A DNA stretch of 64,000 nucleotides from Ktedonobacteria bacterium (GTDB lineage: Bacteria; Chloroflexota; Ktedonobacteria; Ktedonobacterales; JACDGC01): assembly GCA_027459785.1 (NCBI GenBank), contig DAIDGU010000037.1:18004-82003 (forward strand), given 5' to 3'. Positions 58,753 to 59,859 of this stretch are shown in pieces; position 1 is the stretch's first letter; each line of letters starts with the position of its first letter. The notes beneath the pieces were generated by a model. That model saw only the letters and a list, made by a program, of their open reading frames with translations. It ran no database searches and was not told the DNA's origin. Position numbers and translations under genes: made by a program.

Positions 58753-59859
58753 TCATGACACTTGATCCTGTATATTTGGTTGCTTCAGTCGTTGAAATAT
58801 AGCTTCTTTCGTTGCAAAATCAATATCGACGACTTTCCACCCAGCTCCCAACCATGCTTTCGATTGGCTGCGGCTGACATTATCATTTGCCCACCAGAAG
58901 CGATAGACGGAGGTAGGTGGAAGGGGTTTACCCAATATCTTTTCTATATCAGCAAAAAAGAGGCGAATATCTTGGGTACTGGGATCTACATCAGCCAGCC
59001 ATTCTTTGAGAGCATCATATTTTCCTCGGCGACGAGCCTGAATGATAGCCGGTTGGTTATCGAGCGTCTCGACTTTGATATCTCCTTGCTGCACTGGCAC
59101 CGTTATTTGTGGACGTGGACGATTTTCAAGCCAGATGCGTGCATCAGCTAATTGTTCAAGTTGAATCCTACTCTCTTTTCCACGAAAATGGGCTAATTGA
59201 TTTCGGATTTCACGCACATTCTCCATAAGTCTTGCAAACATCTCTTTGGGAGCAAAAAAATCAGCGAATTTATCCCATTGGCTTTCAGCAGTGATAAAAT
59301 GAATGCAATTGCCAAAGGACATTTTTTCGAAATCAGGCATATGATGACCTGTGCTATGAATATTAGCAATAGCTGCTTGGCGAAGTTCATCTGTTGGTAA
59401 TATTTTTTCGATATACTGGCGTAAGGTTAACTCAATGTCCTGCACTAATATTTGGCCTTCGGTGATGTCCTTAAAAAAATATGTTGTATCGTAGTTTGTT
59501 AAAACACCAGCGATTTTATCATCATCATCGACAATGGTAATTGCATACCTATCTTTCAAGGAATTCAGTGCATCGAAGAGATCATCCTCCATTCGATGCG
59601 TGGTTGCAGGAACCATGCAATGTTCAACAGATAATGACAACAGGTAATCGGCTCCCGTAAGGTTATAATAACGCCTGACAATACTTTGTTCTGAGACGAA
59701 ACCAAGCAGATTGCCCTGTTCATTGACAACAGGTAGCTGGCTGAAATCGTGTTCAATCATGCGATCTAGTGCGGTTTGGATTGTTTCCGTTGGCTTTGCA
59801 CAAATCGGTGCTTGACGACCTTCCAACAACTGACTCAATGGAAAAAGCATGATTACCAC
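58753..59859 (-). CDS. CBS-pair protein with HEPN-like RNxxxH region and a C-terminal WWAN/AWL (DUF7662-like) domain
   Basis: Two CBS-like repeats (ICAKPTETIQTALDRMIEHDFSQLPVVNEQGNLLGFVSE; ITIVDDDDKIAGVLTNYDTTYFF); ENVREIRNQLAHFRG; EKILGKPLPPTSVYRFWWANDNVSRSQSKAWLGAGWKVVDID. Confidence 0.8.
   Translation of the reverse strand: MVIMLFPLSQLLEGRQAPICAKPTETIQTALDRMIEHDFSQLPVVNEQGNLLGFVSEQSIVRRYYNLTGADYLLSLSVEHCMVPATTHRMEDDLFDALNSLKDRYAITIVDDDDKIAGVLTNYDTTYFFKDITEGQILVQDIELTLRQYIEKILPTDELRQAAIANIHSTGHHMPDFEKMSFGNCIHFITAESQWDKFADFFAPKEMFARLMENVREIRNQLAHFRGKESRIQLEQLADARIWLENRPRPQITVPVQQGDIKVETLDNQPAIIQARRRGKYDALKEWLADVDPSTQDIRLFFADIEKILGKPLPPTSVYRFWWANDNVSRSQSKAWLGAGWKVVDIDFATKEAIFQRLKQPNIQDQVS

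Follow-up and report, generated by a model that had tools for sequence, protein, structure and literature searches.

The low-GC gene at 58753..59850 on the minus strand of the window, by which we mean the whole 64,000-nucleotide stretch of Ktedonobacteria DNA that was analysed, is predicted to code for an adenine-nucleotide-gated HEPN RNase of the anti-phage type. The protein would serve as a backup effector, acting much as in abortive infection, and the window would have it in a reduced form that stands alone. We put the probability of this reading, in which the activity is predicted, at roughly 0.72. The general kind of protein, a CBS-HEPN fusion, is already known; what is new is a sister clade of the anti-phage protein DS-11, often embedded in restriction operons and carrying a new accessory domain.

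The gene and its surroundings

A sequence-only reading of the same DNA had placed the gene at 58753-59859, starting at a GTG and coding for 368 amino acids. The minus-strand frame proved to be real, and its start is likely to be the ATG at 59850..59848, which gives 365 amino acids and is preferred over GTG 59859 because this GTG sits inside the Shine-Dalgarno-like sequence AGAGGTGG and a promoter-like site is found upstream, ending 37 bases 5' of the ATG. The numbers of residues F39, T121, D124, E143, R219, N220 and H224 nevertheless follow the 368-amino-acid numbering counted from GTG 59859; in the 365-amino-acid numbering the putative catalytic residues are R216, N217 and H221. The features of the gene and its immediate surroundings are the following.

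58753..59850, minus strand: coding sequence, 365 amino acids, CBS-CBS-HEPN-DUF7662 protein (open reading frame with ATG start; AF2 model)
59856..59863, minus strand: Shine-Dalgarno-like AGAGGTGG preceding the ATG (sequence)
59887..59915, minus strand: promoter-like site TCGACA-17-TATACT (consensus match only, 10/12)
58700..59920, no strand: low-GC segment coinciding with the single gene (GC 0.34-0.50 per 100 bp; window 0.62)

The GC content of the gene is 0.42, compared with 0.62 for the window, and its third-position GC is 0.36, compared with 0.76-0.87 in the neighbouring genes. Furthermore, none of 40 genomes from its genus, family and order has the gene. On the basis of this composition and patchiness, the gene was apparently acquired horizontally from another organism. 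Around it lie a DUF1611/DgcN-like gene, one that weakly matches a pyrophosphatase, and PAP2, DUF202 and VIT genes, and no defence island was found around it, there being only a handful of PADLOC matches among the 49 proteins of the window. PADLOC matches to Cas6 and Cas13a (E about 0.003-0.009) were taken as chance. Scans of phages and viral contigs were empty, so the gene was not labelled as phage-borne.

In the genus mate G032, two other low-GC (0.434) genes, DUF488-like by eye, follow the DUF1611 gene (L082 7268-8826), which suggests that the position after DUF1611 is a variable spot; the PAP2 gene of G032 lies on another contig, and no clean empty site was demonstrable there. Two kinds of repeats were also seen in the window. 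A palindromic repeat (CCGGGGGCTAAACCCCCCGG...), about 47-60 bp long and found at 57410-57470, is dispersed, with about 40 copies in the genome to which the window belongs and about 40 in G032, and a run of short direct and inverted repeats of the type GACAGACAGGAATGTCTGTCC occupies 61640-62000, between the DUF202 gene and a permease gene (62017-62847, modB-like by eye).

Domain architecture

AF2 modelling with a 22-sequence alignment gave a mean pLDDT of 88.2 for the window protein, in which the following parts were distinguished.

59467..59811, minus strand: CBS pair, about residues 17-131 in the 368-amino-acid numbering (Pfam PF00571, 2.7e-16; Foldseek; conservation)
59743-59745, minus strand: F39, counterpart of DS-11 Y157 (alignment; only Y or F in the family)
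59488-59499, minus strand: T121-x-x-D124 nucleotide-binding motif (T121 and D124 conserved in 25/25)
59119..59472, minus strand: HEPN-like helical region, residues 130-247 (NF053863, hhalign, HEPN_Swt1 in homologues, AF2 helices)
59188..59205, minus strand: R219-N-Q-L-A-H224, putative catalytic Rx4H (R, N and H invariant in 25/25 family members and 4 DS-11 sequences)
58792..59019, minus strand: DUF7662, residues 281-356 (Pfam PF24698, 9.3e-10, 38.6 bits, cut-off 26)
58882-58899, minus strand: FWWAND within DUF7662 (WWAND, W336 and W341 invariant)

Both ends of the protein agree with what had been read from the letters. The two N-terminal CBS repeats were recovered by PF00571 in two stretches with 60.1 bits, above the cut-off of 24, and the C-terminal WWAN/AWL module said to resemble DUF7662 scored above the cut-off of PF24698. 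In Foldseek searches of the PDB the matches listed were all CBS pairs, from which the HEPN, DUF7662 and DUF4268 parts could not be judged, and a search of a viral structure library gave nothing useful.

The central region had been proposed to be HEPN-like on account of an RNxxxH motif, which is located exactly at the positions claimed. In the AF2 model this region is an all-helical bundle, with pLDDT mostly above 90, and the motif ends the helix formed by residues 202-220 (365-amino-acid numbering), in agreement with the proposal. On the window sequence alone, the Pfam model HEPN_Swt1 (PF18731) reached 15.7 bits, below its cut-off of 27.5; among the homologues it was matched by 10 of 22, the best at 8.6e-5, and Abi_2 was matched by three. 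The HEPN profile of the window family matched that of DS-11 in hhalign with 97.8% probability (E=7.7e-13). Comparison of the HEPN, DUF7662 and DUF4268 profiles with PDB sequences gave no meaningful match and no solved HEPN structure. Because of this, and because the fold search was swamped by CBS pairs, the identification of the central region as HEPN rests on four results that agree: the AF2 bundle, the invariant residues, the HEPN_Swt1 and Abi_2 matches, and the profile match to DS-11.

For a bare RNxxxH, the number expected by chance in a protein as long as this one is about 0.08 (29 in 135,028 residues). We do not consider it a chance occurrence because, apart from E143, R219, N220 and H224, no residue of the 118-residue central region is invariant among the 22 family sequences. 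The same conservation bears on the idea that the central region is a non-catalytic HEPN domain serving for dimerisation or RNA binding. Such domains exist, as described in PMC3710099, and the single-sequence Pfam score is weak; however, R, N and H are invariant in 25 members and in DS-11 although the central regions of the relatives are only about 19-43% identical to that of the window protein, and HEPN mutants of DS-11 lose defence (PMC13092281), which makes a non-catalytic domain very improbable.

DUF7662 occurs in the genome of the window only in this protein. Its predicted order of elements (helix-strand-helix-helix-strand-strand in the AF2 model) is that of winged helices, a secondary-structure reading that suggests a role in the recognition of nucleic acids or partners. 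Other DUF7662 proteins contain the same PF24698 domain above the cut-off, with TIR as the effector or with none. Fusions of DUF7662 to TIR domains were seen in Actinomadura and Virgisporangium (L075 5194-6378 and L079 8483-10285), and by comparison with these DUF7662 may be a recognition module shared by several defence effectors. In L073 (9989-10744) the region joined to the domain is a possible nuclease, with a borderline match to the Holliday-junction resolvase Hjc. Many short, apparently stand-alone DUF7662 proteins were observed in Chloroflexota genomes (e.g. G010, G023, G189 and G165), some of these genomes having two or three such proteins.

Distribution of the family and loss of DUF4268

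When genomes were scanned with the window protein alone, no relative was confirmed, and an alignment query was needed. With this query, a second genome scan yielded 23 loci (L044-L066) that encode the CBS-HEPN core. Their sources are Chloroflexota, Cyanobacteria and Verrucomicrobia, and a single Myxococcales bin (Myxococcota). DUF7662 is present in 22 of the 23. The Ktedonobacter copy (L063 9977-11739) is split over two overlapping frames, with the CBS pair in one and HEPN-DUF7662-DUF4268 in the other, possibly by a frameshift. The Chloroheliaceae copy (L065 9986-11200) has a long insert between CBS and HEPN, is without DUF7662 and DUF4268, and lies next to an AbiU-like gene.

In the members typed against Pfam, DUF7662 is followed by DUF4268 (PF14088), which is present in L044, L005, L006 and L002, and the tails of almost all the other relatives align with it. 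DUF4268 is otherwise found with DUF262/DUF1524 restriction proteins, as in GmrSD-type proteins (PMC4619093); here it ends the longer members of a family that is without GmrS and GmrD domains. The Pfam search found no DUF4268 in the window protein, and no remnant of it was found beside the gene in a search with the tails of the relatives. The window copy and L047 both stop right after DUF7662. The domain has probably been lost at least two times, independently in these two copies, because they belong to different clades of the tree and because of the missing remnant beside the window gene.

This loss raises the question of whether the window copy is a decaying, truncated and non-functional remnant of a CBS-HEPN-DUF7662-DUF4268 gene from a lost restriction island. 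Such a history would fit the finding of DUF4268 in almost every relative, the two sister sequences L044 and L045 among them, its absence here without a remnant downstream, and the lack of a defence operon around the gene. Against it, the frame of 365 codons is intact and has a clean stop directly after DUF7662, all the motif residues are kept, the gene has a promoter-like site and a Shine-Dalgarno sequence of its own, and short forms recur, L047 having lost DUF4268 independently and L065 stopping after HEPN. We regard decay as unlikely, and the window protein is probably a functional CBS-gated HEPN effector.

Comparison with DS-11

DS-11 is an anti-phage system that consists of one protein with CBS and HEPN domains and gives protection to E. 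coli (PMC13092281; DefensePredictor, Science 2026). Mutant Y157A and mutants in the HEPN active site lose defence, and Y157 is predicted to contact the adenine of ATP (PMC13092281). The NCBIfam model of this protein (NF053863, DS11_antiphage) matched residues 8-237 of the window protein, that is, the CBS pair and the central region, with 129.8 bits (E=1.1e-37), to be read against a curated cut-off of 260 bits and against scores of 359-405 for the true DS-11 members L003, L007 and L008. In the E. coli DS-11 of L003, the Y in HDYSQLPV stands at position 157, in agreement with the published numbering, and it aligns with F39 of the window protein.

The two proteins share a CBS pair followed by HEPN with RNxxxHF, the adenine-contact aromatic residue, T-x-x-D, their organization as a single-protein unit and a patchy distribution. 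They differ in that DS-11 has an N-terminal domain of about 110-135 amino acids before the CBS pair, the open reading frames of the DS-11 sequences having 105-135 residues upstream of it, whereas the window protein starts a few residues before the pair, and in that DUF7662 is present in the window protein and absent from DS-11. Furthermore, a tree of the CBS-HEPN core separates DS-11 and the window family into two clades (100/99). With this separation, the score below the cut-off and the missing N-terminal domain, the possibility that the window protein is DS-11 itself was rejected. The sequence-only reading had inferred a nucleotide-gated RNase or sensor, possibly of the abortive-infection type; homology to DS-11 and the conservation of F39, R219 and H224 argue for this inference, because DS-11 defends against phage in a manner that needs both Y157 of its CBS pair and the HEPN active site.

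The E. coli DS-11 gene (L003 7635-8726) has nearly identical copies (at least 99%), all of them chromosomal, in 127 of the 5426 complete genomes of E. coli; one PLSDB record labelled as a plasmid, NZ_CP141089.1, is 4.9 Mb long and is probably a chromosome.

In 2013 it was proposed that CBS-HEPN fusions respond to nucleotide ligands and thereby control how stable RNA is (Anantharaman et al. 2013; PMC3710099). The fusions of CBS with Swt1/Abi2-group HEPN domains treated there show the same combination and the same predicted active site as the window protein, HEPN_Swt1 being its nearest Pfam model, and sometimes carry an HD domain; the accessible part of that paper describes neither DUF7662 or DUF4268 nor an embedding of the CBS-fused form in restriction operons. 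Following the 2013 proposal, the window protein might be unrelated to phage and might instead adjust the stability of cellular RNA under stress, its CBS pair sensing the energy charge. The patchy, horizontally moved distribution, the repeated placement of the genes in restriction, BREX and DISARM-like operons, and the demonstrated phage defence of the homologue DS-11 (PMC13092281) speak against such a role, which we hold to be quite improbable. The same distribution answers the contrary case raised by the sequence-only reading, a broad housekeeping occurrence outside any defence context, which was not found.

The accessible part of PMC3710099 and the BREX paper PMC12839542, in which the term CBS is absent, yielded no description of a CBS-HEPN-DUF7662-DUF4268 family. 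Neither DUF7662 nor 'CBS-HEPN' was named in any paper of the literature collection searched, which lacks preprints and most subscription papers.

Genomic context of the relatives

That restriction and BREX operons can contain HEPN genes is already known (PMC3710099; PMC12839542), and many relatives of the window gene fit this pattern. The gene of L064 starts 3 bp downstream of an hsdM and shares 4 bp with a second hsdM, after which come hsdS and hsdR; in L046 it is likewise sandwiched between two hsdM genes, and in L045 it overlaps hsdM. In L053 it follows a type III mod gene and overlaps a probable C5-methylase, and in L060 and L061 it stands between DrmMI-like/AAA genes and a DruE-like helicase. 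The contig or locus of L044 also holds PglX and PglZ, hsdR lies about 1.4 kb upstream in L047, PD-T4-6-like and PDC-S11 genes are found nearby in L049, and in L065 the gene follows AbiU. The gene directly after the CBS-HEPN gene of L047 (11220-12596) resembles, by eye, a PD-(D/E)XK NucS-like nuclease, and a DUF262-type gene was recognised by eye in the loci of L046 and L053. With the seeds used in the search, L048, L051, L052, L058, L059 and L063 showed no such defence neighbour.

The neighbouring genes scanned individually were chosen by size and adjacency, so that the proportion of loci with a defence context is not an unbiased one. Genes 5.5-10 kb away had been intended as a baseline for the PADLOC scan but, with many BREX, DISARM and Dpd components among them, they do not make a neutral one; the window's own genes are better suited as background. 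We infer that in most relatives the protein is a backup effector beside a restriction-modification, BREX or DISARM-like system.

A different relation to restriction is offered by the PrrC and RloC anticodon nucleases, which are likewise HEPN RNases tied to restriction operons, as in the relatives L045, L046, L064 and L053. In such an arrangement the restriction complex would silence the HEPN RNase, a phage anti-restriction protein would release it, and the CBS pair would be a dimerisation platform only. In favour of it are the tight packing of the gene, at distances of about -8 to 13 bp, in the loci with hsdM/hsdS/hsdR, mod and DrmMI, and the precedent of PrrC (PMC3710099). However, PrrC and RloC carry an ABC-ATPase and no CBS domain, whereas the domain scan found no ABC ATPase in the window protein. 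Moreover, T-x-x-D and the adenine-contact aromatic residue, which is needed in DS-11, are conserved throughout the family, DS-11 works as a one-protein system, and the window copy is without adjacent restriction genes. We therefore see a guard of the PrrC type as somewhat unlikely.

Phage enzymes that degrade SAM can yield methylthioadenosine. The relatives adjoin hsdM, mod, PglX and DrmMI methyltransferases, and the CBS pair of MJ0100, which was solved with bound methylthioadenosine and SAM, is one of many that resemble the CBS pair of the window protein (Foldseek TM 0.88 by target). CBS folds being generic, this likeness is only a hint for SAM sensing. One could imagine that CBS-HEPN-DUF7662(-DUF4268) proteins are an unnamed and widely spread guard of SAM-dependent defence, which reads the adenosine ligand on which such defence depends, for instance SAM or the methylthioadenosine that phage SAM-degrading enzymes leave behind, and frees its RNase when restriction is disabled, the window copy being a mobile single-gene version; we offer this as a speculation with little chance of being right.

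Discussion

These results favour a nucleotide-gated HEPN effector of the anti-phage type. Its CBS pair would hold the probably dimeric protein inactive, in a state set by an adenine nucleotide or an adenosine derivative. A change of ligand during infection would allow the two HEPN domains to meet and form an active Rx4H ribonuclease, which would cut RNA and thereby stop the growth of both phage and cell. DUF7662 would take over from the N-terminal domain found in DS-11 and would recognise nucleic acids or a partner protein, and the window copy would be a stand-alone form that arose after the loss of DUF4268. The analysis itself shows the domain content, the homology to DS-11, the conserved residues, the neighbourhoods and, by composition and patchiness, the horizontal acquisition; the ligand gating, the cutting of RNA, the trigger and the role of DUF7662 are what we infer. 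Without the N-terminal domain of DS-11 and without the usual DUF4268, the window protein may be regulated differently from DS-11 and from the rest of its own family.

No defence system with a CBS domain had been described before DS-11. Its ligand-contact and catalytic residues recur in a second clade, which has other accessory domains and is repeatedly embedded in methyltransferase operons; this narrows the search for the ligand and the trigger. The methyltransferase-containing defence operons around the relatives point to a backup role, and DUF7662, an uncharacterised domain that is also fused to TIR, becomes linked to defence effectors.
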